Origin: Caballeronia sp. NK8
GTDB lineage: Bacteria > Pseudomonadota > Gammaproteobacteria > Burkholderiales > Burkholderiaceae
Assembly: GCF_018408855.1 (NCBI RefSeq)
Contig: NZ_AP024323.1
Coordinates: 806,001 to 870,000, forward strand
DNA: 64,000 bases
Direction of reading: 5' to 3'
Shown here piece by piece: positions 1 to 14,697 of this stretch. Made by a program: the position numbers and the translations under genes. Within the stretch, counting starts at the first letter, position 1, and each line of letters starts with the position of its first letter. The notes under the pieces are model-generated. The model was given only the letters and a program-made list of their open reading frames with translations, was not told where the DNA came from and searched no databases.

Positions 1-40
1 CTTCCGATGTGTTGGGTGGTTGCTGCTACGCCAACATCGT

Positions 41-64
41 CTGTCGGTTGGCATCCAACTGATG
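41..64. promoter_or_regulatory. Candidate upstream activator site of GG-peptide gene 1
   Basis: Imperfect dyad TGTCGGTTGG-CAT-CCAACTGATG with a perfect GTTGG/CCAAC centre. Its centre lies about 120 bp upstream of the -12 element of the sigma-54 promoter at 159-174, a normal enhancer distance. The 9-mer CTGTCGGTT recurs upstream of the second peptide gene (13621-13629). Role as the binding site of the sigma-54 activator encoded at 2026-3339 is inference. Confidence 0.4.
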
Positions 65-158: not shown

Positions 159-174
159 CGGCATGAGCCTTGCA
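159..174 (+). promoter_or_regulatory. Sigma-54 (-24/-12) promoter of GG-peptide gene 1
   Basis: CGGCATGAGCCTTGCA matches the consensus TGGCACGNNNNTTGCA with only two substitutions. GG and GC are exactly 12 bases apart (g160-g161 and g172-c173). Predicted transcription start is near 185, giving a 35-base leader to the ATG at 220. A sigma-54 activator is encoded in the same locus. Confidence 0.75.
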
Positions 175-219: not shown

Positions 220-546
220 ATGTGCGCTCTCACCGTCACCGATCTTCATTACGACCGCGAGCTGGATCACGCGGCGATGTCGGCCATCAACGGCGGAGGC
301 GGCGCGCCATGGGTCTACGGCTGGATCACGCCGTATGTCGATCGCCCGTCGGGCGGCGCGGGCGGCGGCGCTGTCGTGAATCTCATCGACGTTACGAACA
401 ACATCTATGAGGTCACCAACAACGTCACCAACATCACGGTCGGCCAGATGATCAACCAGTTCCAGAACGTCGCGGTCAGCAACACCGGCAACGGCGCGAC
501 GCTCACGGTCAATCCGAACTCAGTGGCGGGAAACCGCGCGGGCTGA
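220..546 (+). CDS. Double-glycine leader peptide precursor 1 (probable C39/ABC-exported peptide)
   Basis: The 108 aa product begins with a 26-residue leader ending ELDHAAMSAINGG, the EL...M.xI.GG pattern cut by C39 peptidases. The leader shares 14 of 26 positions with the second precursor at 13114-13413. The 82-residue core has no Cys, so no lanthionine or disulfide chemistry is expected. It is rich in Asn (13), Gly, Val and Thr, with a VTNN repeat-like stretch that could favour beta-rich assembly. The ATG at 220 is preceded by GGAGA; an in-frame start at 94 would add a long unnatural N-terminus. It is driven by the sigma-54 promoter at 159-174, and the PP2C gene follows 105 bp downstream. 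Export by the transporter at 3336-6395 is inferred from the cleavage motif and shared locus. Function of the mature peptide is unknown. Confidence 0.82.
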   Translation: MCALTVTDLHYDRELDHAAMSAINGGGGAPWVYGWITPYVDRPSGGAGGGAVVNLIDVTNNIYEVTNNVTNITVGQMINQFQNVAVSNTGNGATLTVNPNSVAGNRAG

Positions 547-651
547 TCGGTGCACATCAAGATTCGTTTCGCGCGCGGGTTGGGTCACAATGGGCGGGAC
601 CGTCCGCAACAGTCGCCCGACGCCGCGCCATCCAGCATTCCGGAGGTTGCC

Positions 652-1422
652 ATGACCTTCAGCACCGAGTTTCGATGGACCTCCGCCGCCCGCACCGACA
701 CCGGCTGCGTGCGGCAGATCAACGAAGACGCGCTGCTCGATGCGCCCGAGCGCGGCCTGTGGGCCGTGGCGGACGGCATGGGCGGCCATGCGGTCGGCGA
801 CCTGGCGAGCCGGATGGTCATCGAGAGTCTCGCGAAGGTGTCGCCCGCGGGCGATCTGGCGGGCGTCATCGCCGATGCCCGCACGCGGCTTCTCGATGTG
901 AACGAACGGCTACGCCTGGAGGCGGCGCGGCGCCAGGTTTCGCGTATCGGCAGCACGGTGGTGCTGCTCGTGGCGCGCGACGGCGCGTGCGGTTACGTGT
1001 GGGCCGGCGACAGCCGTATTTATCTGCTCCGGCAGGGACGGCTGATGCAGCTCACGCGCGATCACAGTCATGTCGAGGAACTGAAGGCGCGCGGGCAACT
1101 GACGGCCGAGGAAGCGCTGCATCATCCGGCGCAGCATCTGATCACGCGCGCGGTCGGCGCGCTCGACATTCTCGAACTCGACGAGAACACGTTCACCCTG
1201 AACGATGGCGATACGTTTCTGCTATGCAGCGACGGGTTGTCGAATGAGGTGAGCGAAGCGGAGATGGCGAGCGAACTCGCGCCCGGCAATTGCGAGACGG
1301 CGGCGCAGAAGTTGTTGGAGATCGCCCTGGCGCGAGGCGGACGCGACAATATTTCGGTGGTTGTTGCGCATGCGGAGGATTTGATGGCGTCGGACAAGAC
1401 GCAGGTGAATCCGTCGATTTAA
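652..1422 (+). CDS. PP2C-family Ser/Thr protein phosphatase
   Basis: 256 aa, a single PP2C domain without membrane segments, so cytosolic. Metal-binding motifs are complete: NED near residue 24, VADGMGGH around 41, WAGDSR, CSDGLSNE and GGRDNIS near the C-terminus. It should hydrolyse phospho-Ser/Thr on proteins using Mn/Mg. The ATG at 652 has GGAGG eight bases upstream. It probably shares the sigma-54 transcript of the GG-peptide gene. Together with the twin-FHA protein at 8596-11208 it forms the reading and erasing half of a phospho-signalling circuit. No kinase lies in the window, so the matching kinase is presumably upstream or elsewhere. Confidence 0.9.
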   Translation: MTFSTEFRWTSAARTDTGCVRQINEDALLDAPERGLWAVADGMGGHAVGDLASRMVIESLAKVSPAGDLAGVIADARTRLLDVNERLRLEAARRQVSRIGSTVVLLVARDGACGYVWAGDSRIYLLRQGRLMQLTRDHSHVEELKARGQLTAEEALHHPAQHLITRAVGALDILELDENTFTLNDGDTFLLCSDGLSNEVSEAEMASELAPGNCETAAQKLLEIALARGGRDNISVVVAHAEDLMASDKTQVNPSI

Positions 1423-1430
1423 GTAGAGAC

Positions 1431-1688
1431 TCAGGGATGACGCCGTTGCTGAGTCTGCATGTACGCGCGCAGAAGCCGATTGATACGCGTCTGATATCCC
1501 TTTCCTTGCTGGCGAAACCATTCGAGCACGTCGGCATCCAACCGCATCGTCACGGCTTGTTTGGGCGGAACATGCAGTTCCGCCTGCTCGAAGAACGCGT
1601 CGTCGAGTTTTGGTATGTCGGAATAATCGATGTCGGCGTCCTTCATCTTCGCCAACCGGTCCCAGTCAGTTCCCGATTTCTTGCTCAT
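1431..1688 (-). CDS. brnA: BrnA-family antitoxin
   Basis: 85 aa. The C-terminal part (KQAVTMRLDADVLEWFRQQGKGYQTRIN) has the ribbon-helix-helix type sequence typical of BrnA, which neutralises BrnT and represses the operon. The ATG at 1688 overlaps the end of brnT by 23 bases, the usual toxin-first order of brnTA. It is convergent with the PP2C gene, leaving eight bases between stops. Confidence 0.85.
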   Translation of the reverse strand: MSKKSGTDWDRLAKMKDADIDYSDIPKLDDAFFEQAELHVPPKQAVTMRLDADVLEWFRQQGKGYQTRINRLLRAYMQTQQRRHP

Positions 1689-1947
1689 ATCTTTTCGCCT
1701 CGTGTCTGTCCGCTTTTCGCGCCGAGATGATACGGATCACATCCGCATATCGCTCGACATACACCACGACGCCTAATAGCTCCTTCATCCAGCCCAACGC
1801 TATCCAGCGTTCTTCTCCATACGCTTCCCGCGTATCGGGCCACGTCAACACCGGGTGATTGAATACGTCGACTGCATCTCGAAAATCGATTCCGTGCTTT
1901 CGAATGTTGGTTTGATTTTTCTTTTCATCCCATTCGAAATGCACGCA
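1666..1947 (-). CDS. brnT: BrnT-family ribonuclease toxin
   Basis: About 93 aa from the GTG at 1947. The product starts VHFEWDEKKNQTNIRKHGID, the hallmark BrnT N-terminus, and has the family's DTREAYGEERW and VVVYVER segments. BrnT is an RNase that arrests growth when free of BrnA. A TTG start at 1989 would add 14 residues without family support, so GTG is preferred. It is followed by brnA with overlap. It lies directly behind the sigma-54 regulator on the same strand, and may be a passenger stabilising this locus rather than part of its function. Confidence 0.82.
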   Translation of the reverse strand, partial: CVHFEWDEKKNQTNIRKHGIDFRDAVDVFNHPVLTWPDTREAYGEERWIALGWMKELLGVVVYVERYADVIRIISARKADRHEAKRYEQEIGN

Positions 1948-1967
1948 CCACCCGTATTGACGTTTGT

Positions 1968-1975
1968 ATGTACAT
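1968..1975. promoter_or_regulatory. Possible brnTA operator
   Basis: The perfect 8-bp palindrome ATGTACAT lies 21 bases upstream of the GTG start of brnT. BrnA is known to autoregulate its operon by binding near the promoter. Short palindromes arise by chance, so this is tentative. Confidence 0.25.
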
Positions 1976-2025
1976 TTTGCCTCCGACAAGCACGCAACGT
2001 CAACATGCTTTCGACGGCCAGGCCG

Positions 2026-3339
2026 CTACCCCTCCGCCTCCCGATTCTTCTGCGCCGCCGCCCGAAACTCCTTCGAATGCAGCCCATGCTTCTTCAAAAG
2101 CATCTGCAAATGCGACCGGTTCATCTCATACCGCCGCGCGAGTTCCGCGACCGTCCCGCCGGTTTCCTGCAAGCCCCGCTCGAGAAACGCGCGCTCCGCC
2201 TCATCGCTTGCGACGCGTTTGGCTTCCGCAAGCGAACTGGCCGTCGCGATGCCGTTGCCGCTCGCCGCCGGACCGCCCATCGCCAGCGAGAGTGATGACT
2301 TCGGGCGAATATCCACGGGCAGATGGTCGATGTCCGCCATATCGCCCGCCAGACAGGCGAGCCGGTACACCACGTTCCTCAACTCGCGAATATTCCCCGG
2401 ATAATCATAGTTGCGCAGAAAATCGCGCAGCCTCGGCGAGAGCTTCACCGGCCTGCGCTTCAACGTCGCCGCCGCTTCATCGCCGAAATAGGCGAGCAAC
2501 AGCGAAATCTCGTCGCGCCGTTCGCGCAACGCCGGCAGCGTCAGATGAATCACGCTCAGCCGATAAAACAGATCCTCGCGAAAACGCCCTTCTTCGCAGA
2601 ACTTGCGCAAGTTGCGATTCGTGGCCGCGACGATGCGCGTATCCACACCGATCGGCTCATCCGAACCCACGCGCTGAATCTCGTGCGCTTCGAGCACGCG
2701 CAACAGCTTCACCTGCCCCGACAAAGGCAACTCACCGATTTCATCGAGAAAGATGGTGCCGGTATGCGCGCTTTCGAATTTGCCCTTGCGATCGTTGGTG
2801 GCACCCGTGAACGCACCCTTGCGATGCCCAAATAATTCGGACTCCAGCAGATTATCCGGAATGGCGCCGCAGTTCACGGAAATATACGGCTTGTCCGCGC
2901 GCGAGCCGTTCGCGTGAATGACCTTCGCCATCAGTTCCTTGCCGGTGCCGCTTTCGCCGTCGATCAACACGGGCAAGTCCGTCGGCGCGGCTTTCTCGGC
3001 GATTTCCAGCGCTTCGAGCAGCTTCGGGTTATCGCCGAAGGTGCCTTCGAACACGAAGCTGCGCTCGATCAGCGCCTGCCGCCGCGCGCCTGCCGGCAGA
3101 TCGCGCTTCGGCTCCGCGGCCGCCGCCTGCACGAAACGCTCCTTGTGCGATAACTGCATGACTTCGTCGCGCAAGGTGCTCGCCTGCCGCAAGAGCTTTT
3201 CGATCTCGGGCCGTTCGAGGCGCGAGGTCCATCTGAGCGTCGAGCGCAGAATCTCGATTTTCTCGATGAGTCCCGCATACGAAATCGCCGATGTCGCTGG
3301 CGCGCTGGTATCGCTTTCCGGTTGATCGAGTATTTTCAT
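2026..3339 (-). CDS. Sigma-54-dependent transcriptional activator (bEBP)
   Basis: 437 aa. Residues 1-95 are a helical N-terminus with no recognisable receiver, GAF or PAS domain. The AAA+ domain follows (about 96-330), with Walker A GESGTGKE at 128-135, an intact GAFTGA loop at 175-180 that contacts sigma-54, and Walker B TIFLDE at 195-200. A Fis-type helix-turn-helix lies at about 390-420. The ATG overlaps the stop of the C39 exporter by 4 bases (ATGA), so it is translationally coupled to the export genes. Likely targets are the sigma-54 promoters at 159-174 and 13486-13501. How it senses a signal is not visible. Lack of a receiver suggests control through a partner, possibly the FHA/PP2C phospho-circuit. 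Confidence 0.92.
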
Positions 3340-6300
3340 GCTGCGCTCAGTTGCTTTTGCACGAGTTGGTAGTACATGCCCTTTCGCGCGACGAGTTCGT
3401 CGTGCTTGCCCTGCTCGACGATCCCGCCTTCGTACAGCACGAGAATCTTGTCGGCGCGCATGATCGTCGACAGCCGGTGCGCGATGATCACCGCCGTGCG
3501 CCCCTTCAATATCTCCTGCATGTTGCCGAGAATATTGCTTTCCGATTGTGTATCGAGCGCGGAGGTCGCTTCATCGAACACGAGCAGACGCGGGTCGTGA
3601 TAGAGCGCGCGCGCGATGCATAGCCGCTGAATCTGTCCGCCCGAAAGGCCCACGCCGCGCTCGCCCACCACTTGCTCATAACCTAGCGGCATCTTCGCGA
3701 TGAACGCGTGCGCGTCGGCCATCTTCGCCACTTCCTCGATGCGCCTTCTGTCCGGCGCTTCATCGCCGCTCGCGATGTTCTCCGCGATCGTGCCCGAGAA
3801 CAGCAGATTGCTCTGCATCACATAGCCGATCTGCGCGCGAAAGAAGCCTTTATCGACGACGTTGATATCGTAGCCATCGACCGTCATCTTGCCTTCGCTC
3901 GGCGCGTAGAAGCCGACGAGCAGTTTCGCGAGCGTCGTCTTGCCCGAGCCGCTGCGCCCGACGATCGCGATCAGTTCGCCCGGCCTGATATCGAAGCTGA
4001 TGTTCTCCAGCACGTAAGGCGCATCGCCTTCGCCATATCGGAAGTACACGCCGTTGAAGCTGATATCGCCCTGCAGGTCGGGCAGCATCACGCGCTGCTG
4101 CATGTCCTCGGGCTTCTGTTCCGGCTCGATGTCGAGCACGTCGCCGAGCCGCTCCATCGCGACGCCCGCGTCGTTCAGCAGGCTCCACAAGTTGATGAGC
4201 CCCATCAGCGGCGCAAGCACGCTGCCCATGTAGGCATTGAACGCGATCAGTTGCCCGATGGTGAGTTCGCGCGCGAGCACGAGATTCGCACCGACCCACA
4301 GCACGCCGATGGTCGTCGCCGCATTCAGCACCTGGCTGCACAGGCCCACCGCGATATTGAAGCGTTGCGACTTGTATTGCACTTCCAGCGACTTCGCGTA
4401 CTTCTTCTCCCACTTCAGGCGCACCGGCCGTTCGATGCCCATGCCCTTGACCGTCTCCACGCCGCCGAGCGCTTCCATCAGATAGGAACGCGCGTCCGTG
4501 CCTGCCGAGAACGTCTCGCGCGCGTTCTGCTTGATGCGCGGTGTCGCGACGATGGTGAGCACCATCATCGGAATCACGAACGCGATCAGCAGCAACGTGA
4601 GCTTCACGTTGTAGAGGAACATGATCGTGAAGTAGATGAAGATCATAAGCAGGTTCAGCACGGTCGACACCGTCGATTCCGTGAGGAACGCGCGGATCGT
4701 GTGATTCTCCTGAAAGCGCGCGAACACGTCGCCGGTCTTGCGCTTCGCGAAGAAGCCGAACGGCAGCGAGAACGTGTGCCTGAAAAATTGCGACATCATC
4801 GCGAAGTCCATGTTGCGGACCATGAAGTTCGCGAGGTAGGCGCGTATCGTCGTCATCAGTTGCGTGAACGCGCTCGCGATCACGAGCCCGAAGATCAGCA
4901 CGTGCAGGAGGTTGACGTTCTGATGCACGATCACGCCGTCGAGAATGTTCTGGATGATGAGCGGCGGTATCACGCCCAGCACCTGAATGACGAAGGTCGC
5001 GAGAAAGAGATGCAGCAGGATCTTCTTGTACGGCTTCAGATAGCCGACGAAGCGCAGCCACGGCGAGCGCGACACGGCCTTCTGCGCGAGATCCTGTCCC
5101 GGCGTGAACAGCAGGCATGTACCGCTCCAGCCGCGCTCGAACTCGCCGACCGTCATCTTCCGAAAGCCGATGGCCGGATCCGCGACCCACACGTTGTCGC
5201 TCGACACGCCATAGATGATGATGTAGTGGTATCCCTCCCAATGCGCGATGAACGGCATCTCGAAGCCGCGCAGCGATTCGAACGTGCACTGCACGCCGCG
5301 CGTCGTGAAGCCGAGCGATTCCCCCGCGCGCGAAAGCGAATCGAGCGTCGCGCCGGAGGTCGTCACGTTGGCGAGCTCGCGCAGCTTGCCGAGCGTCATG
5401 TTGATGCCGTAGTGGCGGCAGATCATCGCGAGACACGCGGCGCCGCAATCCATCTCCTCGGCCTGCTCGACCCACGCAAAACGCTTGATGACGCGTTCGC
5501 CCAGCTCGGGCCTGGTGTGCAGATCGAGCATCGCGGGCAGCTTGCGGCGCTCGGCGAGCTTCTTCTGCCGCTGCAATTCGCGCTCGCTGAATCGGATGCG
5601 CTCTTCCAGCACCTCGCGCAGCTTCACGTTGCGCTCGATGATGAAATGCACCGTCTTCTCGGGAATCACGAGCAGGCGCGTATCGGCGCTCGCGATCGCG
5701 GACGCCATCTGCTCCTGACGCATCACGCAGGCTTTCTCGCCGAAGATCTCGCCGGGGCCGAGCGTCGCGATCACATGCTGCACGCCGCTCTCTTCGCGCA
5801 CGATACGCACTTCACCCTGACGCACGACATAAAGACGCCGGTCGTCGCGCGAATCCTGCTTGAGAATCTCCTTGCCTTCGGCCACGCGCTTCACGCCGAC
5901 GCTGCGCACGCATTCCTCGAGTTCCGCCTTGTCGAGCTTGCCGCGCAGATCGAACAGCTTCGCGACGAAGCCGCCCGCCGAGTTGATCGCGACATAGCTC
6001 GTGATGAACGCGAGCGCGGCCGGATTCTTCGCGATGACGGGCTCGATCGCGACGCGCGGAATATGCAGCAGTTCGGTCTTGCCGGAGGAACGCACCGACG
6101 ACTCATGGCGGTACTCGCGCAGCATGGCGATATCCGCGAAGGTCTCGCGCTCCTTCTTCACCCCCATGCTGATTTCCTTGCCGTGCTCCTCGGTGAAGAT
6201 GCGCACGGACCCCGCCTTCACGATATAGAGCCCGTCGGCCGCATCGCCCGCATTGCAGACGGTCTCGCCGAAGCCGAAGCGGCGCGACACCGCGTGCGTC

Positions 6301-6395
6301 GCCAGATGCTCGATCTCCTCGCGCGTGAAGGGCGAGAGAATCTCGACCGACGAGAGAAACTCGGCGGGCGAATCAAGGCTCGATGGAGCGTCCAT
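3336..6395 (-). CDS. cNMP-binding/C39 peptidase/ABC exporter fusion for GG-leader peptides
   Basis: 1019 aa. Two Crp-like cyclic-nucleotide-binding domains come first (about 15-135 and 145-265). A C39 peptidase follows (about 305-430) with oxyanion Gln311, catalytic Cys317 in DCGAACL, His390 in GYHYIIIYG and Asp406 in DPAIG, all present. The ABC transmembrane domain spans about 455-745. The ATPase has Walker A GRSGSGKTT at 813, LSGGQ at 917, Walker B LLVFDE at 937 and H-loop His973. It should cut GG leaders in the cytosol and export the core, with HlyD-like and TolC-like partners encoded upstream. The cNMP-C39-ABC order is known from cyanobacterial HetC-like transporters; two regulatory domains suggest gating by a small ligand. 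It starts 23 bp after the isomerase gene and overlaps the sigma-54 activator by 4 bp. Confidence 0.93.
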   Translation of the reverse strand: MDAPSSLDSPAEFLSSVEILSPFTREEIEHLATHAVSRRFGFGETVCNAGDAADGLYIVKAGSVRIFTEEHGKEISMGVKKERETFADIAMLREYRHESSVRSSGKTELLHIPRVAIEPVIAKNPAALAFITSYVAINSAGGFVAKLFDLRGKLDKAELEECVRSVGVKRVAEGKEILKQDSRDDRRLYVVRQGEVRIVREESGVQHVIATLGPGEIFGEKACVMRQEQMASAIASADTRLLVIPEKTVHFIIERNVKLREVLEERIRFSERELQRQKKLAERRKLPAMLDLHTRPELGERVIKRFAWVEQAEEMDCGAACLAMICRHYGINMTLGKLRELANVTTSGATLDSLSRAGESLGFTTRGVQCTFESLRGFEMPFIAHWEGYHYIIIYGVSSDNVWVADPAIGFRKMTVGEFERGWSGTCLLFTPGQDLAQKAVSRSPWLRFVGYLKPYKKILLHLFLATFVIQVLGVIPPLIIQNILDGVIVHQNVNLLHVLIFGLVIASAFTQLMTTIRAYLANFMVRNMDFAMMSQFFRHTFSLPFGFFAKRKTGDVFARFQENHTIRAFLTESTVSTVLNLLMIFIYFTIMFLYNVKLTLLLIAFVIPMMVLTIVATPRIKQNARETFSAGTDARSYLMEALGGVETVKGMGIERPVRLKWEKKYAKSLEVQYKSQRFNIAVGLCSQVLNAATTIGVLWVGANLVLARELTIGQLIAFNAYMGSVLAPLMGLINLWSLLNDAGVAMERLGDVLDIEPEQKPEDMQQRVMLPDLQGDISFNGVYFRYGEGDAPYVLENISFDIRPGELIAIVGRSGSGKTTLAKLLVGFYAPSEGKMTVDGYDINVVDKGFFRAQIGYVMQSNLLFSGTIAENIASGDEAPDRRRIEEVAKMADAHAFIAKMPLGYEQVVGERGVGLSGGQIQRLCIARALYHDPRLLVFDEATSALDTQSESNILGNMQEILKGRTAVIIAHRLSTIMRADKILVLYEGGIVEQGKHDELVARKGMYYQLVQKQLSAA

Positions 6396-6418
6396 GTTCT
6401 ATCGCGTTTCCGGTCGGG

Positions 6419-7171
6419 TCAGCGGGCTTCGATGACATGTTCCTGCGCGCGCGTCATCATCCATTCCTCGCGCAGCAGGCGGCGGATTTCCGCGGACACG
6501 TCTTCGTCGAGCTTGGCGGGATACTTGGCCGTCACCGCGAAGATTTCATACGACGCGCCGTCCGCCGAGACGAACGGCCCGAGCAGATCGCCCACTTCCG
6601 CGTTGAAGACTTTCGCCTCGACCTCCGGCTTCATCTGACCGCGCATCACGCGGCCGATCACGCCGCCTTCGTCGCGCGTATCGGCAAGCGAGTGCTCGCG
6701 CGCCATCTCGGCGAAGCTGTCGGGATCGTCGTTGAGATACGAGATCATCTCCTTCGCGCTGCCTTCGGTATCCAGCAGGATATGGCTCACCTCGATGCTG
6801 TCGAACTTCGGTGAATTGAGCTGGAAGTACTCTTCGACCTCGCGCGGCGTGCCGACCTTGTCGAGCATCTTCTCGTGATAGAGCGTATCGGTGATGAACA
6901 CCTCGAACTCGTCGAGACTCACGTGCAGCGCATCGAGATAGTTGTTCATGTCCGCCGCGCGATGCAGCCCGCGAATGCGGCGGAACTGATCGGCGCGATT
7001 CTGGATGTCATCGTCGCTCACGACGATGCCGGACTTCTTCGCCGCGCGCACGGTCAGCTTGTCGCGCACGAGTTGCTCGATGAGACCGTCGAACTGACCG
7101 TTCAACTTCAACAACCTGATGAATTCGCCGACGTCGACCACTTCGTCGTCGATACGCACAATCGCCGTCAT
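6419..7171 (-). CDS. SurA/PpiC-like peptidyl-prolyl isomerase of the export locus
   Basis: 250 aa. A helical SurA-N-like region (1-110) is followed by a parvulin rotamase domain (about 125-215) with the family pattern EVSHILLD...FAEMAREHS...GGVIGRV. No signal peptide is visible, so it may act on precursors in the cytosol or be exported unconventionally. The ATG at 7171 has GGAGAA seven bases upstream. An upstream in-frame start at 7207 lacks this. Position between adaptor and exporter suggests it handles the peptides before or during secretion. Similar isomerases occur next to C39 exporters in other bacteria. Confidence 0.85.
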   Translation of the reverse strand: MTAIVRIDDEVVDVGEFIRLLKLNGQFDGLIEQLVRDKLTVRAAKKSGIVVSDDDIQNRADQFRRIRGLHRAADMNNYLDALHVSLDEFEVFITDTLYHEKMLDKVGTPREVEEYFQLNSPKFDSIEVSHILLDTEGSAKEMISYLNDDPDSFAEMAREHSLADTRDEGGVIGRVMRGQMKPEVEAKVFNAEVGDLLGPFVSADGASYEIFAVTAKYPAKLDEDVSAEIRRLLREEWMMTRAQEHVIEAR

Positions 7172-7244
7172 ATCGTTCTCCGTTCGGTTCTCTGTTGAAT
7201 TGCGCATCTTGTCCGCGTTGCGGCGTTCGTGTAACCCCCCATTC

Positions 7245-8618
7245 CTATCCCGCCACGTTGCGGAACGGATCGAGCCCGAGGTCGATCAGGCGCCGCTCGC
7301 GCACCACGATCTCAGCGGTCGCCGTCATGCCGTAGCGCAGCGGATACTTCGTGTCCGCGACCTGGTACGAATCGCGATCGAGCGTCACGCGTCCTTCATA
7401 AACCGGCTGCTTCGTGCCCGGGCTCGGCTTGGTCGCGGGCGAGATGAATGCGAGGGTGCCCTCGATCACGCCGTAGCGCTGATAAGGAAACGCGTTGAAC
7501 TTGAGCTTGACGCGCTGCCCTTCACGCAGAAACGCGCGGTCGTGCTCGGCGATCTCGATCTTCAGCACCGGCTTCGCATTGGCGGGCGCGATGCCGCCGA
7601 GCGGCGTGTTCGCCTGAATCTTGTCGCCGGGCTGCGTCGAGGTCACATCGGTGATCACGCCCGAAACCGGCGCGAGAATCAGCAGAAAATTATCCTTGTC
7701 GATGTTCTCGAACTTGATGCGCGCCGCCGCGTCCGCGACCAGACGCGCGGTCTGTAGTTGCAGACGCAACTTGTCCTCGGTGCTGGCGACTTCGCGCATC
7801 GCGGCTTCGTATTGCAGGCGCAGGCTCGTCGCTTCCTGGCCGCTCGTTTCGAGTTGACGCTTGGCCTGCGTGAAATCGTGGCTCAGGCGAAAGTCCAGTT
7901 CCGCCAGGCGCGACTGCTCGACCCGATACGCGCCGTCTGCTTCGAGATACGTGTTGCGCTTCGCATCGACCTGCGTTTCCGCCACGCCGCCGCCGCCCGG
8001 CAATGCGAGCAGGCGCTGAAAGCGGTCGTACTCGACCTTGGCGGCGTCGCGCGCGCGGCGCGCGTTTTCCAGCGTGCTGCGCGCTTCCTGCAACTGCGCC
8101 TTCTGACCTTCTGCAAGTTTGCTCGTGCCTTCCGCGACGCGCTGCTGATGCTGATGCTCCTCCACGTCCATCTGATCCTTGAGCGCGGCGATGCGGCGCT
8201 CCATCAGCAGTTTCTTCTCGGGAAACTGCTTCCACTCGCGTTCGGCGTCATCGAGCTTCAGTTGCGCTTCGAGCGCATTCGTCGCCGCCTCGATCGCGCC
8301 GCGCGCATTCAGGCGCGCCACGACATCGTCCTTGCGCACGGGCTGCCCTTCGGCGATATAGAGGTCGGCGAGTTCACCATCGATCGGCGCATAGAAACGG
8401 CGCACTTCCGATTCGGGCGCGAGCGTGCCCTGCGCGCTGACCATCACGTCCGCATGGCCGACGAACGACCACACGAGCGCCGACGCGACCAGCGCCACCA
8501 TCGCGAAGACGAGGCCCTGCGTGAGCCGGGCCGGCTCGGCGGTCAGAATGGCGATGCCTTCGGCGCCGTGCTCGCCGAGCGCCTCCGACAACGACTTAAG
8601 GTGTGCGTCTCTCTTCAC
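7245..8618 (-). CDS. HlyD-family membrane fusion protein (type I secretion adaptor)
   Basis: 457 aa. A short cytosolic tail precedes one transmembrane helix (about 32-54). A lipoyl-like half motif follows (PIDGELADLYIAEGQPVRKDDVV), then a long coiled coil (about 115-300), a second half-lipoyl and a beta-barrel region ending near READ-type repeats. It bridges the inner-membrane ABC exporter and the outer-membrane TolC-like protein. The GTG start at 8618 has GGAGG eight bases upstream. The gene overlaps the FHA gene by 23 bp, indicating one operon. Confidence 0.9.
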   Translation of the reverse strand: MKRDAHLKSLSEALGEHGAEGIAILTAEPARLTQGLVFAMVALVASALVWSFVGHADVMVSAQGTLAPESEVRRFYAPIDGELADLYIAEGQPVRKDDVVARLNARGAIEAATNALEAQLKLDDAEREWKQFPEKKLLMERRIAALKDQMDVEEHQHQQRVAEGTSKLAEGQKAQLQEARSTLENARRARDAAKVEYDRFQRLLALPGGGGVAETQVDAKRNTYLEADGAYRVEQSRLAELDFRLSHDFTQAKRQLETSGQEATSLRLQYEAAMREVASTEDKLRLQLQTARLVADAAARIKFENIDKDNFLLILAPVSGVITDVTSTQPGDKIQANTPLGGIAPANAKPVLKIEIAEHDRAFLREGQRVKLKFNAFPYQRYGVIEGTLAFISPATKPSPGTKQPVYEGRVTLDRDSYQVADTKYPLRYGMTATAEIVVRERRLIDLGLDPFRNVAG

Positions 8619-11208
8619 TGCCCGTGCCTCCGCCGATCAGACTCAGCTTGGTATTGAGAAGTCCTGGTTCGAGCACCATGCGCAGGTCCTGCAGCGAACG
8701 CCGCTGCAAGTCCGCTTCGGTGTCGATCTCGCTGGCGAGCGCGGTCCATTTCGCCGTCGCGCTATCCGCCTTCACTTGCCTGAAGATACGCATGCCGCGT
8801 GTGGCCGCATCCTGCGCGTCGGACAGCAGGCGCGCCTGCGTCCTGAATACGTCCGACACGCCCGATTCGAGCCGCTGCGACCCGCCGATGCCGCCATTCG
8901 TCCGATACTGCTGCCAGGCCGTTTGCGCCTGCGTCATCAGTGTCTGCGCGCGGCTGGTGGCCTTGTCCTTGAGCGCTGCAACTTCGGGCGCGACCGCCTT
9001 CGCGTAGAACGTGTCGGCATCGAGATCGAGGGTTTCGTAGAACGACAGCAGCGCGTCCTCGTAATTTTTCGAACCGCGCGCCTTCTGCACGTCGGCGAAC
9101 TGCGCGGCCACGGCCTTTTTGTGCGCGAGTTCCTTTTGCACCGTGGGCGACCACGTACCTTGCGGCAGCTTCTGCAGGCCATCGATTGCCTGCGCGCTCT
9201 GGCCGCGGTTCCACGCATCGGCGACGCTCGTGTATTGCGTGAGTACATCGGCCGGGGGCAACTGGCTCGCGCTCATCTGTTTGAATTTTTCCTGGAACGG
9301 CGGCGTCGAAAAACTGGTCTTGCCCACCGAGCCCGCGAGCGGCGCGAGGCTCGCGCCATTGAGACCGCGACGCAGACCGGCATAGGCATCGAGATCGGCG
9401 CGCACGCGGTCGAGACCCGCGAGGCGCGGATATTTATCGGCGTATTCCTTCAGCGTCGCGTTGATCGCATCGGGATCGTCCTGGCCGAGACTCTTGATGA
9501 TGCTCGCATTGAGCCGGTCGATGGCCGCGAGATAAACGGAGTCGTCGCTTTGCAGCTTGCGCAGATGGCTCAGCGCGAGCGCATAGGGATCGCGGAACTC
9601 GGACACGTATCCCGCGATGCGGTCCAGATCGCGCTGATGCCCTCCCGCGTCCGCTTCCCAGTGCTTCAGGATCGCGCTGATGCGCGACTCATCGCCATAC
9701 ATGCGGATCGGCGCCTCGGCCCCGCCGCGGCCCATCACGAAGCTTTCCAGCTTGCCGATCCATTCGAGTTCGTCGACCAGCGAATGCACATCGGGGTTGT
9801 GCTCGGCGAGCGTTCGCATCTGCACGATGATCGCGTCCGCGCTCGCGAAATCGCCCTTCTTCAACGCGGCGAGCCAGCGCGGCACGTTCGATTTGAGCAC
9901 GGCCTCGGTGTTCATCGAGGCAAACTGCGTGTCCTTCGGATGCGTCTTGAGGTAGTCGTTGGTGACCGTGGCCGCCTCGCCGAATTCGCCGCTCGACATC
10001 AGCGACTTCGCCTCACGCTCGGGCATGCCGATGTAAAAGAGCGCCGAACCGCCCGCGACGAGCACGGCCAGCACGCACGCGAGCACGATGCGCGTGCGGC
10101 GCGCGGCGTGCGGGTCGTCGCTGGCGAGCGCGCGGCGCACTTCGCCCACGAAGAGCGCGAACTTGCTGCGCTTCGCGGCACGCGCGTCCGGGCGCTTTTC
10201 CTCGGCGGGCACGGGCTGCGCTTCTTCGTTGACCTCGTCTTCGCGCGCTGCCGCCTGATCGACGCAGAAGATATCGAGGAACGAATGCGCCGAGCCGACG
10301 AACGTGGTCTTGTCGCTGTCGAATTCGTCGTCGTGGTGAGTGGGCGCGACGGCTTGCGCCACCATCTCGGTGAGCGTCGATTCGCCTTCGTCGCCGTGCA
10401 GTTGCACCCGGTACGCGAAGTGCGTGCCGCCGAACGCGACGGTATCGCCGTTCTTCAGCTCGACCGCCGACGCGCCGAGCCGCTCGCCGTTGATGAAAGT
10501 TCCATTGGTGCTGCCGAGATCCTCGACGAACGGCGCGCCGCCCTTGATGAAGACGTGCGCGTGCCGCCGCGACACGTAATTGACCTGATGCGGATACTGC
10601 TCGCGATAGCGCGAAAAAGTCTCATCGCTCTTGCTGACCAAAAACGGGAACTGCGCGAGTTCGACCGGATGCAGGCCGAGATCGTCGCGCTGCGGCGTGA
10701 GCGTGAGGCCGACAGGCTTCGGCGCGTCGAGCCGCCGCGTGCGCGGCGCGAACTGCACGCGATACGAAAGCCGGCTGCCGAATGAAATGGTGTCGCCGTT
10801 TCGGACGCGCGCGGGCGTGTCGCGCACGGGCGTGCCATTCACGGCAGTGCCGTTCTTGCTGCCGAGATCGGCGATATAGACGAGCCCATGCTCGACGAAG
10901 ATGCGCGCATGGCGGCGCGAAAGCTGCGCCACGGCTTCGGCGGGGCTCGTGTCGAACGGCGCCTCGGTGCGGCCGATCGCGAAGAGATTCTCGTCGATAC
11001 GGATTTCCGTGAGCCGCTCGGCAAGCTCGCCGGCAAGCTCTGGATGCGGCGCGGGCTTGAGGATGACGTCGAACGCCTCGCTCACGCCGGGCTGCTGTAT
11101 CGCGACGGAAACGCCTTGAGCCATGTCCATGTCACGAGGTACGTCCAGAGGAATGCCCGGCAACGCCGGGCGCATGGACAGGTTGGACGGCGCCGAAATC
11201 GATGTCAT
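8596..11208 (-). CDS. Twin-FHA-domain membrane protein of the peptide-export locus
   Basis: About 870 aa. Two cytosolic FHA domains bind phosphothreonine. The first (about 75-150) has GRTE, SRRHA and LGSKNGT. The second (about 190-270) has SRRHAHVF and LGSTNGTFING. An acidic linker leads to one transmembrane helix (about 373-395), then about 470 residues of helical, presumably periplasmic sequence of unknown fold. This layout suggests it relays a phosphorylation state across the inner membrane or docks phosphoproteins at the exporter. The start is taken as the ATG at 11208; a GTG two codons earlier is also possible. It overlaps hlyD and lies 144 bp after the TolC-like gene. No kinase is encoded nearby; the PP2C at 652-1422 is the obvious antagonist. 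Confidence 0.85.
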   Translation of the reverse strand: MTSISAPSNLSMRPALPGIPLDVPRDMDMAQGVSVAIQQPGVSEAFDVILKPAPHPELAGELAERLTEIRIDENLFAIGRTEAPFDTSPAEAVAQLSRRHARIFVEHGLVYIADLGSKNGTAVNGTPVRDTPARVRNGDTISFGSRLSYRVQFAPRTRRLDAPKPVGLTLTPQRDDLGLHPVELAQFPFLVSKSDETFSRYREQYPHQVNYVSRRHAHVFIKGGAPFVEDLGSTNGTFINGERLGASAVELKNGDTVAFGGTHFAYRVQLHGDEGESTLTEMVAQAVAPTHHDDEFDSDKTTFVGSAHSFLDIFCVDQAAAREDEVNEEAQPVPAEEKRPDARAAKRSKFALFVGEVRRALASDDPHAARRTRIVLACVLAVLVAGGSALFYIGMPEREAKSLMSSGEFGEAATVTNDYLKTHPKDTQFASMNTEAVLKSNVPRWLAALKKGDFASADAIIVQMRTLAEHNPDVHSLVDELEWIGKLESFVMGRGGAEAPIRMYGDESRISAILKHWEADAGGHQRDLDRIAGYVSEFRDPYALALSHLRKLQSDDSVYLAAIDRLNASIIKSLGQDDPDAINATLKEYADKYPRLAGLDRVRADLDAYAGLRRGLNGASLAPLAGSVGKTSFSTPPFQEKFKQMSASQLPPADVLTQYTSVADAWNRGQSAQAIDGLQKLPQGTWSPTVQKELAHKKAVAAQFADVQKARGSKNYEDALLSFYETLDLDADTFYAKAVAPEVAALKDKATSRAQTLMTQAQTAWQQYRTNGGIGGSQRLESGVSDVFRTQARLLSDAQDAATRGMRIFRQVKADSATAKWTALASEIDTEADLQRRSLQDLRMVLEPGLLNTKLSLIGGGTGSEERRTP

Positions 11209-11278
11209 GTGCACCCGGCGGCTGTTGAGAGTTTAAGTCACGCATCGTCGTAGTCAATCGTGCAGCAACGGCTCGTCA

Positions 11279-11294
11279 TGCAAATAACGGGCGA
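11279..11294 (-). promoter_or_regulatory. Weak sigma-54-like promoter before the FHA gene
   Basis: On the minus strand TCGCCCGTTATTTGCA has a perfect TTGCA -12 element and correct spacing, but the -24 element is poor (CG instead of GG). It lies about 70 bases upstream of the FHA start. It could add sigma-54 control of the export genes. Confidence 0.3.
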
Positions 11295-11352
11295 TTTAAA
11301 AACGATCGTTAGTTATTCATATCATTGCGTTCGACGTAATTCGTGAAGCGCT

Positions 11353-12801
11353 TCACTTCACCTCGTCCTTGCTCGCGCTTTGCACGTCGATCATCGGCCA
11401 GCCGCCGCCGAGCGCCTTATACAGCGTCACCGTGTCGGACAGAATCTGCTGATGATTCGCGAGCAGCGCGAGTTGCGCGGCGAGCAGTGTGCGCTCCGTC
11501 TCGAACACCTGAAGCTGCGAGATCACGCCCTCTTTCAGTTGCGCGTCGATCTGCGCGGCGACGATCGTCAACTGATCGACTTCCTGCTGCAACTCGACAC
11601 GCTGCTTCGTGTGCGAATCGAGATTGACGAGCGCGTTCTCCACTTCCTCGAACGCGTTCATCACCGTGCTGCGATATTGCTGTTCGGCGACCTGCGTCTG
11701 CGCTTCGGTCGTTTTCACGTGGGCGCGCACGGACGGATCGAGAATCGGGATATTGATGCTCGGCACGAAGCTCAACGTGAACATCTTCAGCAGATCGGTC
11801 AGCTGAAAGCTCGCCGAGCCGGCGCGGCCGGTCAGATTGATGGTCGGCAGTTGCGCGAGCTTCGCCTGGCCGACGAGGTCATAGGCTTCGAGCACGCGAT
11901 ACTCCGCCGCGATCAGATCGGGGCGGCGCGCGAGCAGTTGCGACGGCAGGCCGCTCGGCACCGGCGGCACCTGCACGCGCTTTTGCAGCTTGCCGTCGGG
12001 CATTCTGAATTCGCCCGCGGGCACGCCGATCAGCGTGGAGAGCGCATTGTTCGCGAGATCGCGCGAGCGGCGCAGTTCCAGCAGCTCGCGCGTCAGGCGA
12101 TTGAGTTCCGCGCGCTGCGTGAGCACCTGCGTCTTCGGCACGAGACCGTTCTTCTGCATGCCTTCGAAGATCGTCAGGATCTGCTGGTTCGTGGTGATGG
12201 TCTGCTGCTGCTGGGCGATCTGATCGTCGAACTGGAGAATCTGGAAGTATGTCGTCGACACGAGCGAGACGAGTTCGAGGTAGCCCGCGCGCCAGTCGGC
12301 CTCGGTCGCGCGGAATTCGGCTTTCTGCGCCTGCACGCCCTTCTCGACCGAACCCCAGATGTCGATGTCCCAGCTCACCTGCGTCGCCAGGTTGTACTGC
12401 TTCGAGAACTTCTGGCCGGTGGTCTTCTCGAAGCTCGCGCCAGCGCCCAGATCCATCGACGGCAACGCGCCCGCGCGCGCCTCGCCGATCTGCGCACCCG
12501 CAACCTGAATGCGCGCGGCCAGCACCTTGATGTCGAAGTTGTTGCTGATTGCCTTCTCCACCAGCGCGTCCAGAGTCGGATCGTGGAACTGCTTCCACCA
12601 GTCGGGCTGGATGGTGTCGGACGCGGCGACCTTGGATGAGTCGATTTTCGTGAAGGCGGTTTTCTCGGGGGTATCGGGACGCTGATAGGTCGGCACTTTC
12701 ACGTCGATGCAGCCCGACAGCAGCGCCGCGGCAATGAGCGCTGGCAGCACGGCCCCTTTTCGCTCGATGGTCACGCGCAACGATGACAACAAGGCTTGCA
12801 C
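11353..12801 (-). CDS. TolC-like outer-membrane efflux lipoprotein (NodT/OprM type)
   Basis: 482 aa. A lipoprotein signal ends in LLSGC, so the protein is acylated and anchored in the outer membrane. Two OEP repeats follow (about 55-260 and 270-470), with the usual WWKQFHDPTLDALV start and long helices. It forms the trimeric outer duct for the HlyD-like/ABC pair. GTG start at 12801 with GGGAG seven to eight bases upstream. The family normally serves RND pumps; the location ahead of FHA, HlyD and C39-ABC genes on the same strand assigns it here to type I peptide export, though it could serve other pumps too. Confidence 0.9.
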   Translation of the reverse strand: MQALLSSLRVTIERKGAVLPALIAAALLSGCIDVKVPTYQRPDTPEKTAFTKIDSSKVAASDTIQPDWWKQFHDPTLDALVEKAISNNFDIKVLAARIQVAGAQIGEARAGALPSMDLGAGASFEKTTGQKFSKQYNLATQVSWDIDIWGSVEKGVQAQKAEFRATEADWRAGYLELVSLVSTTYFQILQFDDQIAQQQQTITTNQQILTIFEGMQKNGLVPKTQVLTQRAELNRLTRELLELRRSRDLANNALSTLIGVPAGEFRMPDGKLQKRVQVPPVPSGLPSQLLARRPDLIAAEYRVLEAYDLVGQAKLAQLPTINLTGRAGSASFQLTDLLKMFTLSFVPSINIPILDPSVRAHVKTTEAQTQVAEQQYRSTVMNAFEEVENALVNLDSHTKQRVELQQEVDQLTIVAAQIDAQLKEGVISQLQVFETERTLLAAQLALLANHQQILSDTVTLYKALGGGWPMIDVQSASKDEVK

Positions 12802-13113
12802 GATCTCGCTCCCGGTGAACGCGCACCGACGGTCAGGTTTTAGTGATGAGAAGCGCGGCGCCCGTTCGGTTCTTCAAGTAAATCACACGGCGCGCCGGGA
12901 CTCCATACGGGTTAAGTCACGTGGCGCGCGCGTGCTCTTTGACACGTCGCGCGCCCGTGACGCGGTCCGGCTGGAGGATGCGACCCTCGCCGAACCGCAA
13001 CGCCCCGGAATGCGGGCGGTGTTACAGCGGAGATCCCCGTACCCCGCTTTTACTGCTGACGGCATGGATGCTTTACTGCGTCGGCGCGCCATTCATTCCG
13101 CGCGCCGATCGCT
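12802..13113. other. 312-bp gap between GG-peptide gene 2 and the TolC-like gene
   Basis: No gene seen. It holds the strong hairpin at 12923-12955. No convincing sigma-54 promoter was found here, so the export genes may be read from the promoter in front of the peptide gene, or from an unrecognised sigma-70 promoter. Confidence 0.5.
12923..12955 (-). other. GC-rich hairpin between peptide gene 2 and exporter operon
   Basis: A 12-bp stem (GGCGCGCG/CGCGCGCC plus CGTG/CACG, one bulged T) with an eight-base loop. No T-tract follows on the minus strand, so it is not a classical terminator. It may attenuate or stabilise the transcript, giving much peptide mRNA and less transporter mRNA. That role is inference. 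Confidence 0.4.
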
Positions 13114-13413
13114 TCATGCGAGATTGCCCGCCAAGCCGAAGTTGACGTTGGCGATGTTGCGCGCGTCCTGCTTCGGCGCCACCGTGGATTGCGACTTGAG
13201 CGCCTCGGCGAACGCGATGTTGCTGCCGTTCTGGTTGAACGTGGTCTGCGTCTGGTTGATGATCTGCTGCGGGTTGAACGGCATCGAGAGCGTCGCCCCG
13301 TCCATCGAGATGAAGCCGGGGAACAGCACGGCACTGCCTCCATGCACGGCCGACATCGCACGGCGGTCGAGTTCGGTGGTGACGGGAAGGTCCTTGATGG
13401 TCAGCGTCTTCAT
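13114..13413 (-). CDS. Double-glycine leader peptide precursor 2 (probable C39/ABC-exported peptide)
   Basis: 99 aa. The 26-residue leader ends ELDRRAMSAVHGG and aligns without gaps to the leader of the 220-546 product. The 73-residue core is Cys-free and Asn/Gln-rich (9 Asn, 7 Gln; for example NPQQIINQTQTTFNQNG), otherwise unlike core 1. ATG at 13413 with AAGGAG eight bases upstream. A strong sigma-54 promoter lies 70-90 bp upstream. It precedes the TolC-FHA-HlyD-isomerase-exporter genes on the same strand. Core composition suggests an aggregating or fibre-forming peptide rather than a small pore-forming bacteriocin, but no function can be assigned. Confidence 0.82.
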   Translation of the reverse strand: MKTLTIKDLPVTTELDRRAMSAVHGGSAVLFPGFISMDGATLSMPFNPQQIINQTQTTFNQNGSNIAFAEALKSQSTVAPKQDARNIANVNFGLAGNLA

Positions 13414-13485: not shown

Positions 13486-13501
13486 TGCATAGGGTGTGCC
13501 A
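13486..13501 (-). promoter_or_regulatory. Sigma-54 (-24/-12) promoter of GG-peptide gene 2
   Basis: On the minus strand TGGCACACCCTATGCA carries a perfect TGGCAC -24 element and a TGC -12 element. GG and GC are exactly 12 bases apart. Predicted start is near 13475, about 62 bases before the ATG at 13413. Confidence 0.75.
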
Positions 13502-13620
13502 ACCGCGTCATGCACCTGCTGTTTTTCGTGTCCGCCCTTACTGCATACGGCTCTCGGCGGTACCTGAAATTTCTTGCCGTAACCATCGTGATGTCGCTCG
13601 ACCAACACTTCGGACTCCGA

Positions 13621-13752: not shown

Positions 13753-14211
13753 TCACTTGACGTAAATCGTGATCTTCCTGGAATACACCGGCGGGTTATG
13801 CGGTATGTGCTTGTCGTCGCCCATCAGAAGCTGAATCGTGTGCTTGCCCGGCGGCAGTTCGAGCATCGTTTCGGTTTCGCCGGCGCCGTAGTGCAGGTGA
13901 TTGCGATCCGATGGAATCTCCTGATCCATCGGCGGCAGGTCCACGTCGATCAACAAATGATGATGCCCCGTGTTCGGAAACTTCACCCCGCGCGGCGCGA
14001 CGCCCATGTAGCGCAGCCCGAACCAGACCTTGAACGGCTTGCCCGCAGGCAGGGTCTGGCCATCGTTCGGATAGCCGATATAGGCGTAAGCGTTGGCGGG
14101 CGCGGGCGTCGGCCCGGCGAACGCGCAAGGCGCGACGCACGCCGTCGCCAGCGCGGCGGCGACGAGGAGCGAACGCGAGAGCGCGAGCGCGTCAGCGGAT
14201 CGATTCTTCAT
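13753..14211 (-). CDS. DUF4399-family exported protein (copy A)
   Basis: 152 aa. Signal peptide to about residue 32 (ending CAFAG). A DUF4399 domain follows with the conserved blocks GHHHLLIDVDLPP and IPSDRNHLHYGAGETE, then PPGKHTIQLL. His-rich motifs could bind metal; no activity is established for the family. The ATG at 14211 is chosen over a TTG at 14229. It lies 48 bp behind copy B and is probably co-transcribed with it. Why this pair sits beside the peptide-export locus is unknown. Confidence 0.85.
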   Translation of the reverse strand: MKNRSADALALSRSLLVAAALATACVAPCAFAGPTPAPANAYAYIGYPNDGQTLPAGKPFKVWFGLRYMGVAPRGVKFPNTGHHHLLIDVDLPPMDQEIPSDRNHLHYGAGETETMLELPPGKHTIQLLMGDDKHIPHNPPVYSRKITIYVK

Positions 14212-14259
14212 GTCGTATGCCCTCGGCAAATGCGCGGGTTTCGCGAGTCATTTCACGGC

Positions 14260-14697
14260 TCATTTCACAGTGATCGTGATCTTCTTCGAATAGACCGGCG
14301 GATCGTGCGGAACGTGGTTGTAGTCGCCCAACAGCAACTGCAGCGTGTGTTTGCCCGGCGGCAGTTCGAGCCGCGCATCGGTTTCGCCCGCGCCGTAGTG
14401 CAGATGATTGCGATCGGACGGAATCTCCTGATCGAGCGGCGGCAGGTCCACGTCGATCAGAAGATGGTGATGCCCCACGTTCGGCAGATCGACGCCCTTT
14501 GGACAGATGCCCATGTTGCGCAAGCCCATGCGAACCCACAGCTTGCCGCCGGAAATCACGGCGCCGTCGGGCGGCCAGATGATGTACGCCTCGGCGTTCG
14601 GCGGCGCGGGCGTGCGTGCACGCGCGGCGGAGAACGACGAATCGGCGGCCAGTGCGGCCAGGGAAGCCAGCGCGCCAAGCACGGTTCTTCTCAGCAT
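14260..14697 (-). CDS. DUF4399-family exported protein (copy B)
   Basis: 145 aa with an N-terminal signal (RRTVLGALASLAALA) and a DUF4399 domain almost identical in its central part to copy A (GHHHLLIDVDLPPLDQEIPS and following). It clearly arose by duplication of its neighbour. ATG at 14697 with GAGAGG ten bases upstream. First gene of the probable two-gene operon. Confidence 0.85.
   Translation of the reverse strand: MLRRTVLGALASLAALAADSSFSAARARTPAPPNAEAYIIWPPDGAVISGGKLWVRMGLRNMGICPKGVDLPNVGHHHLLIDVDLPPLDQEIPSDRNHLHYGAGETDARLELPPGKHTLQLLLGDYNHVPHDPPVYSKKITITVK

Follow-up and report, generated by a model that had tools for sequence, protein, structure and literature searches.

In Caballeronia sp. 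NK8, we found a locus that on balance appears to encode a type I secretion system for small, N/Q-rich GG-leader proteins. In this interpretation, the system is switched on through sigma-54 and gated by a kinase, a phosphatase and an FHA protein, and its cargo is most likely matrix or surface material. The features of the window, which is the whole stretch of 64,000 nucleotides that was analysed, are collected in Table 1.

Table 1 Features of the secretion locus, in window positions
Feature	Positions	Strand	Basis or detail
Enhancer-like dyad TGTTGG-N7-CCAACA upstream of peptide A	18..36	none	2 mismatches
Second enhancer-like dyad upstream of peptide A	42..60	none	2 mismatches
-24/-12 (sigma-54-type) promoter-like site, peptide A	159..174	+	10/12 consensus positions
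Peptide A precursor (class A), 26-aa GG leader and 82-aa core	220..546	+	108 aa
PP2C phosphatase	550..1422	+	Pfam PF13672
Sigma-54 activator (bEBP; GAFTGA motif, no receiver domain reported)	2026..3339	-	PF00158, E 2.5e-70; motif by eye in translation
Exporter: two cNMP stretches, C39 peptidase, ABC membrane and ATPase domains	3336..6395	-	Pfam
PpiC/SurA-type peptidyl-prolyl isomerase	6419..7207	-	PF00639; TIGR04500 below cut-off
HlyD-type periplasmic adaptor	7245..8618	-	PF13437
Twin-FHA protein, one membrane segment (by eye), alpha-helical repeat C-terminal region	8596..11214	-	PF00498, two stretches
TolC/NodT-family outer-membrane channel (OEP)	11353..12801	-	PF02321; TIGR01845 above cut-off
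Peptide B precursor (class B), 26-aa GG leader and 73-aa core	13114..13413	-	99 aa
-24/-12 promoter-like site, peptide B	13486..13501	-	10/12 consensus positions
Enhancer-like dyad upstream of peptide B	13589..13607	none	2 mismatches
DUF4399 protein a (signal-peptide-like start, by eye)	13753..14229	-	PF14347
DUF4399 protein b	14260..14706	-	PF14347
Caspase-like protein, C-terminal FGE/sulfatase-modifying domain; signal-peptide-like start (by eye)	14993..16978	+	PF00656, PF03781

As a first-pass annotation of this DNA had proposed, two precursors with matching leaders flank the exporter genes. Their leaders are identical at 14/26 positions, with GG at both leader ends, and the cores are indeed rich in Asn and Gln (20% N+Q in peptide A, 22% in peptide B) and free of Cys. 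Throughout the family, cores are nearly always Cys-free and contain 21% N+Q, versus 6.8% in other proteins of the loci. Leader conservation, whose failure was to count against the annotation, is evident in both classes: positions D8, L9, L15, D16, M20, G26 and G27 show no variation or are conserved at 90% or more among 101 aligned class A sequences, and the leader is also kept in class B (18 sequences). The exact leader pattern matches only the peptide A and B genes in the 9.2-Mb genome. A chance leader match can be rejected, given this conservation and the co-occurrence of the peptides with the exporter. Even without their leaders the two cores align (hhalign probability 90, E 1.6e-6), and they are thus homologous to each other.

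The exporter has the properties of C39 (PCAT) type I secretion, in that a C39 domain with Gln, Cys and His is fused to ABC membrane and ATPase domains and the GG-leader precursor genes are linked to it. Its residues 303-1012 match PCAT structures by sequence, and a cNMP-fold domain with two PF00027 stretches precedes C39. The catalytic residues, previously described as complete, are nearly universal in an alignment of 99 rows that includes some genomes twice (Gln311 in 99/99; Cys317 and His390 in 98/99). Pfam also agrees with the identities first assigned to the PP2C, sigma-54 activator, cNMP-C39-ABC, isomerase, HlyD, twin-FHA and TolC-type channel genes. Both the adaptor and the channel occur in the window and in loci L028-L046. 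HlyD lies within 10 kb of peptide A in 76/80 named loci, in which the channel is beyond the fetched reach. From these sequence features we infer that the peptides are cleaved after GG and exported by the C39 exporter.

The upstream regions point to a sigma-54-dependent regulon, with a bEBP that carries the sigma-54 interaction domain, -24/-12 sites and an upstream dyad. A -24/-12 site matching at least 10/12 positions is present in 83/89 unique class A upstreams, versus 1.95% of 4000 control windows. The dyad is found in 87/88 class A and 17/29 class B/C upstreams; the reversed dyad, used as a control, occurs in 0/88 and 0/29, respectively. Site and dyad occur together upstream of both peptide genes in the window and in 82/88 distinct class A upstreams; among class B/C upstreams, a good -24/-12 site is limited to 14/29. 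On its own, the dyad lacks specificity, with 139 matches per strand genome-wide versus 173 for the reversed pattern.

Peptide A, the exporter, the FHA protein, the kinase and the DUF4399 pair are present in exactly the same 22/100 Burkholderiaceae genomes, a co-occurrence inflated by shared ancestry, and were not found in the other 78/100. The first-pass annotation would have been refuted by exporters lacking peptide genes, but the exporter and peptide A share these 22 genomes. DUF4399 has two matches in each of them, and the kinase is located away from the locus in four. Presence is patchy within genera (e.g., 4/7, 1/7 and 2/7 genomes), and a neighbouring control gene does not follow the distribution of the five parts. 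The gene set appears to be gained or lost as a unit in soil bacteria related to Burkholderia. Among the 80 named loci found by peptide A, 77 have the exporter within 10 kb. Of the remaining three, two are on short contigs; in the third, the PP2C gene is followed by other genes, as far as fetched.

We propose that the sigma-54 activator binds the dyads and would thereby turn on the peptide genes from their -24/-12 promoters. The long-type C39 exporter would cleave off the leader behind the GG and act with HlyD and the NodT-type channel to move the core out of the cell, and the PpiC isomerase may help the core to stay soluble. The Ser/Thr (Hanks) kinase belonging to the system, situated about 157 kb away in the NK8 genome, has Pkinase and DUF4384 domains and, judged by eye, a membrane segment with a long C-terminal part behind it. 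Together with PP2C and the membrane FHA protein, whose model has a mean pLDDT of 91 over residues 401-872, it could act as a switch based on threonine phosphorylation, with either the activator or the exporter under its control.

Outside the cell, the constant class A cores and the variable, often multi-copy class B cores would most likely assemble into a matrix or surface structure; the DUF4399 pair and the caspase-like protein are putative extracytoplasmic helpers. Since the AlphaFold model of peptide A shows no fold (mean pLDDT 52) and a Pfam search at E<=0.1 gave zero matches for either window peptide, the curlin repeat included, the suggestion of assembly draws on composition and precedent. 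The precedent is EbfG/PteB of Synechococcus elongatus: in the matched passages of two papers (PMC4997328, PMC9981879), EbfG1-4 depend on PteB for efficient secretion, the system has a biofilm role, and EbfG1-3 formed amyloid in tests. By analogy, the NK8 cargo probably works in a similar way, acting outside the cell. A stronger claim, which we regard as doubtful, is that this is a distinct secretion machine in which a threonine-phosphorylation switch of kinase, PP2C and membrane FHA scaffold controls the C39 exporter and the sigma-54 regulon. The product would be an on-demand, self-assembling amyloid-like fibre of constant class A and variable class B subunits, trimmed or anchored by the secreted caspase and the DUF4399 pair.

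It is also conceivable, if unlikely, that the cores are signalling peptides. Once exported, they would be detected, perhaps by the kinase through its extracytoplasmic portion, and the kinase, FHA protein, PP2C and sigma-54 activator would complete the loop. The architecture of the kinase and its co-inheritance with the peptides are consistent with this idea, as is the strong conservation of class A, and HetC, another cNMP-C39 exporter, is proposed in the matched text of PMC10986499 to export a signal. However, the cores, which share N/Q motifs and have several paralogs, are at 70-80 aa long for a signal, and no receptor was identified.

Bacteriocins typically have GG leaders and C39 exporters, and class B varies in the manner already mentioned, so that a bacteriocin or microcin system of two peptides, used in competition, has to be considered; we judge it to be slightly less likely still. 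When small ORFs lying outside the known genes were searched in 20 loci, one proved to be widely shared. The conserved small protein that it encodes, some 1 kb upstream of peptide A in 78/80 named loci, could have an immunity function and makes the bacteriocin reading a little more likely. However, its family occurs in 50 plasmid records and the exporter in 4, so it is not specific to the system. Moreover, the class A core is under purifying selection (pooled dN/dS about 0.25), the mean net charge of the cores is -1.4 for A and -0.7 for B, and no bacteriocin family scores above its cut-off. That the leaders merely look alike and the C39 exporter does not carry the peptides is hardly credible: it gains room from the fact that cleavage and export are predicted from sequence, but the exact co-occurrence, the linkage, and the promoter sites and dyads argue against it.

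The proposed secretion of cargo as a matrix or surface material is closest in function to EbfG1-4/PteB, which likewise comprises small GG-motif proteins that need a C39 ABC transporter for efficient secretion. By contrast, the matched passages (PMC4997328, PMC9981879) mention no sigma-54 activator, kinase/PP2C/FHA proteins, DUF4399 or caspase, and the likeness drawn here is one of function. Long-type CAP_ED-C39 exporters of cyanobacterial cluster groups I, II and VI share the N-terminal cNMP domain, C39 and ABC, with HlyD and a rotamase (SurA) beside the exporter (matched parts of PMC3140520). HetC has the same exporter domains but, in the available text of PMC10986499, no GG-leader gene or adaptor nearby, unlike the NK8 locus. 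The NK8 exporter differs from all of these cyanobacterial exporters in its two cNMP stretches, and the regulatory and cargo modules differ as well, as far as the portions of these papers extend. The ligand of HetC is ppGpp. In NK8-type exporters, the canonical phosphate-binding Arg positions of the cNMP domain vary.

A distant sigma54-PpiC-HlyD-cNMP2-C39-ABC-FHA operon (L141, L142) has relatives of five of the gene types in adjacent positions. However, its isomerase, HlyD and exporter are only 23-34% identical to ours, one FHA domain is apparent by eye in L141 versus two in NK8, and tblastn at E<=1e-4 found no class A or B peptide there. Threonine-phosphorylation switches are best known from type VI secretion, where PpkA, PppA and Fha have such roles. 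The threonine phosphorylation pathway of type VI secretion (PMC5995506, in the matched portion) similarly ties a kinase, a PP2C and an FHA protein, the three gene types compared here, to a secretion machine, but in NK8 the machine is a type I exporter, and its FHA protein spans a membrane segment and ends in a long helical region. A C39 ABC exporter is also combined with HlyD in NHLP/NHLM bacteriocin export, but the NK8 locus scores below the TIGR03796 and TIGR03794 cut-offs (the exporter reaches 553.8 of the 853.3 bits for TIGR03796). The literature matches listed, in their matched passages, describe no phosphorylation-controlled secretion gene set of this make-up, which fits the earlier view that the combination is not a described system.

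To our knowledge, few C39 exporters with known cargo lie outside enterobacterial microcins and cyanobacteria. The locus bears on whether Gram-negative GG peptides are limited to killing or do more. Joint inheritance and shared promoter sites link the cargo to its exporter, phospho-switch and regulator, and the question is therefore directly testable by gene removal; the carriers are culturable soil and plant-associated species, among them the non-pathogenic strain Paraburkholderia xenovorans LB400 (locus L080). Should the cargo assemble, a major group of plant- and soil-associated bacteria would have a functional fibre that belongs to neither the curli nor the Fap family.

We now note some additional properties of the locus. 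The span 220..13413, initially taken as the locus, lies within a real one but is too short, as conserved genes extend rightwards to about 16978 and start left of the window. The kinase, DUF4399 pair, caspase-like protein, shared sigma-54 sites with dyads, and core homology are likewise additions to the first description. An LRAT-domain protein and the conserved small protein are on the other side of peptide A, which makes an immunity function conceivable. The caspase relative adjoins the locus in 17/19 fetched loci, and the other two stop at a contig end. No class B gene was recognised in loci L040 and L045. A known defence system was considered and rejected: padloc gave only generic matches (kinase, sigma-54/AAA, ABC, cNMP, PP2C, caspase) and none to either peptide, the FHA protein, the isomerase or DUF4399 protein a, in a scan that left out HlyD, the channel and DUF4399 protein b. 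A relaxed leader search of the NK8 genome gave a third match, with 2 mismatches, in a class D gene beside the kinase that has a basic core. Because its promoter evidence is weak (a -24/-12 site at 11/12 but 134 nt upstream, and a dyad with 3 mismatches), this gene is only a possible third cargo. The PP2C start is probably near 652, because homologs align from residue 35.

Genes for PP2C, a sigma-54 activator, a cNMP-cNMP-C39-ABC exporter, a PpiC isomerase, HlyD, a twin-FHA protein and a NodT-type channel lie between the genes of peptides A and B. The exporter locus flanked by two GG peptides that was described in the first-pass annotation is real, and the system is larger than set out there. 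A scan of genomes with a profile of class A (the kind of leader-bearing peptide exemplified by peptide A; peptide B is class B) confirmed 184 places, and we analyzed the best 80. No farther than 10 kb from peptide A, these best 80 of 184 loci contain PP2C in 79 cases, the activator and the exporter in 77 each, the isomerase and HlyD in 76 each, and the FHA protein in 73. An exporter is missing from three loci: from two whose contigs are 3965 and 5675 bases long, and from L067, where PP2C is followed by other genes. Exporter and peptide A are encoded on opposite strands in 73 of 77 loci, as in the window, and on the same strand in the four inverted loci (L116, L117, L123, L126). In 19 loci (L028-L046), the set runs on into the channel, a class B peptide, a DUF4399 pair and a caspase protein. 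The caspase gene is present in 17 of these, the remaining two being cut off by the end of a contig. None of the genes in L040 and L045 was recognized as class B.

Features of the system and its surroundings (window positions unless a locus is named; G000, own genome; L027, fetched locus reaching left of the window; L138, fetched locus with the kinase)
Feature	Position	Strand	Remark
Peptide A	220-546	+	26-residue leader ending GG
Peptide B	13413-13114	-	26-residue leader ending GG
Dyads	18-36, 42-60, 13589-13607
Fourth dyad match	14315		inside a DUF4399 gene
BrnT/BrnA toxin-antitoxin pair	1431-1989		between PP2C and activator
DUF4399 pair	13753-14706		conserved-looking His residues
80-aa protein, no Pfam match	L027:14957-15202		just left of window; ~1 kb upstream of peptide A, divergent
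LRAT-domain protein	L027:15240-15743		adjoins 80-aa protein; divergent from peptide A
Kinase, 792 aa, Pkinase domain	G000:C2:646361-648739 = L138 10361-12739		~157 kb from peptide A
Class D leader gene, basic 45-aa core	L138 9974-10186		divergent from Ser/Thr kinase

L064 and L067 carry other genes in the gap between PP2C and the activator, which in L057 and L060 spans several kb. The gap thus looks like an insertion point, with the BrnT/BrnA pair apparently not part of the system.

Co-occurrence of the class A peptide and the gene set in Burkholderiaceae, suggested earlier as a check, was observed. Every part was searched for in the same 100 genomes, one of which is the own genome. Five parts each occur in 22 of them, and the five sets are identical: the FHA protein (E<=1e-10), class A profile (1e-5), kinase (1e-70), cNMP-C39 part of the exporter (1e-60) and DUF4399 (1e-25). 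Each cut-off was fixed ahead of its search, and they are unequal because some families have paralogs. DUF4399 has exactly two matches in each positive genome, and none was found at E<=1e-25 in the 78 genomes without the system. A control neighbor gene, DUF3857, is in 36 of 100 genomes (18 of the 22 positive, 18 of the 78 others). The seven genera having the system do so in 7/8, 4/7, 1/7, 3/3, 1/3, 4/7 and 2/7 genomes. Since the genomes share common ancestry, these counts are given without a probability. Across the order, class A was found in two genomes out of 250, and these are Burkholderiaceae. Isomerase relatives above 60% identity occur in 3 of 398 genomes of the phylum, again all Burkholderiaceae, with six more at 23-36%. 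Among plasmid records, the exporter is in four. It is carried by a 3.2 Mb Burkholderia stagnalis replicon that is recorded as a plasmid (NZ_CP156686.1 1217892-1219205) and by three Caballeronia replicons, and so sits on secondary replicons too.

We called -24/-12 sites at a match of at least 10 of 12 to the literature consensus. Two lie in the window's first 20 kb, preceding peptide A by 61 nt and peptide B by 88 nt; the whole 64 kb has seven. Such sites precede class A in 83 of 89 unique upstreams, versus 1.95% of 4000 windows drawn at random from these loci. A dyad, GTTGG-N7-CCAAC, is prominent in 27 of 81 non-redundant upstreams (at most 3 in shuffles, 8 for the runner-up dyad). With up to two mismatches allowed, 92 of 95 class A genes have TGTTGG-N7-CCAACA no more than 400 nt away, versus a density of 0.011 per 400 nt in the rest of the loci. 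Among unique upstreams, the dyad occurs in 87/88 for class A, 17/29 for B/C and 2/8 for D/other, its reversed form in 0/88, 0/29 and 1/8, and a good -24/-12 site in 82/88, 14/29 and 1/8. Some genomes are present twice among the loci; identical upstreams were removed from the 89- and 88-upstream counts, and duplicates kept in the 95-gene count and the C39 residue alignment. Genome-wide, the dyad is no commoner than its reversed control (139 versus 173 matches), and is therefore informative solely beside promoters. The activator encoded in the locus is inferred to bind the dyad. The genetic unity of the system and sigma-54 control of its peptides are, in our view, very probable.

The leaders of peptides A and B match as had been claimed (14 of 26 positions identical), and their cores (the part after GG) are Cys-free and Asn/Gln-rich (N+Q 20% and 22%), also as stated. 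The C39 residues of the exporter are conserved, and in sequence comparison its residues 303-1013 match PCAT1- and ComA-type structures. The peptides probably leave the cell through this exporter. Canonical cNMP domains carry a phosphate-binding Arg at motif positions. Both cNMP domains of the exporter vary there, so cAMP is an unlikely ligand, judging from sequence. The domain of HetC, a cNMP-C39 exporter, is reported to bind ppGpp (PMC10986499), and cyanobacteria are reported to have long-type C39 exporters accompanied by HlyD and SurA (PMC3140520). A distant operon (L141) encodes a sigma-54 activator, isomerase, HlyD, cNMP-cNMP-C39-ABC and FHA, and another locus (L142) has relatives of the same five genes. 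Both belong to other Pseudomonadota families, and Magnetococcales MAGs are among the closest named relatives of the L141 exporter. Among the open-licence PMC papers listed, titles and abstract openings yielded no description of the gene combination, which agrees with the initial view that it could not be named as a described system.

Of the 22 positive genomes, 18 have the kinase relative no more than ~6 kb from peptide A or from the DUF4399 pair; in the other four (own genome, G030, G061, G081) it is apart from both. Given this proximity and the shared 22 genomes, kinase, PP2C and FHA protein travel together. A kinase/phosphatase/FHA pathway is described for T6SS (PMC5995506), and we lean towards phospho-gating here. 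The sole further leader-like gene found in the own genome (two mismatches to the leader pattern) is the class D gene next to the kinase; class D relatives are near the system in L035, L036, L038, L039 and L143.

Class A is conserved (alignment consensus ...GGGAPWVYGWITPYV...QMINQFQ.VDV.NTG.NSNI.V), with a pooled core dN/dS of ~0.25 (88 sequences, 3453 pairs). Class B is variable, with as many as four copies. With leaders removed, core profiles of A and B align at E 1.6e-6 (probability 90), and align weakly for B and C (9e-4, 23) and A and C (2e-3, 14). Cys occurs in 1/169 A, 2/42 B and 0/4 C cores, and mean net charges are -1.4, -0.7 and +0.5. At E<=0.001, 139 relatives were found for peptide A (best 120 of 139 listed) and 21 for B; among matches listed, the closest named ones are mostly Caballeronia. 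AlphaFold gave no fold for peptide A, and a Pfam search of both peptides matched no family. A matrix or surface role for the cargo, which we propose tentatively and rank ahead of signaling and bacteriocin, therefore rests on composition, cargo homology and precedent. In the cyanobacterium Synechococcus elongatus, the C39 transporter PteB is reported as required for efficient secretion of the small GG-motif proteins EbfG1-4 (PMC4997328), and EbfG1-3 are reported to form amyloid in tests (PMC9981879).

In a search for small conserved genes, the 80-aa protein was found in all of the best 80 of 184 loci, within 3 kb of peptide A in 78; the LRAT-domain protein has the same counts. The 80-aa protein may have an immunity role. 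Both proteins may belong to the system, but the family of the 80-aa protein, in 50 plasmid records versus the exporter's four, is not specific to it.
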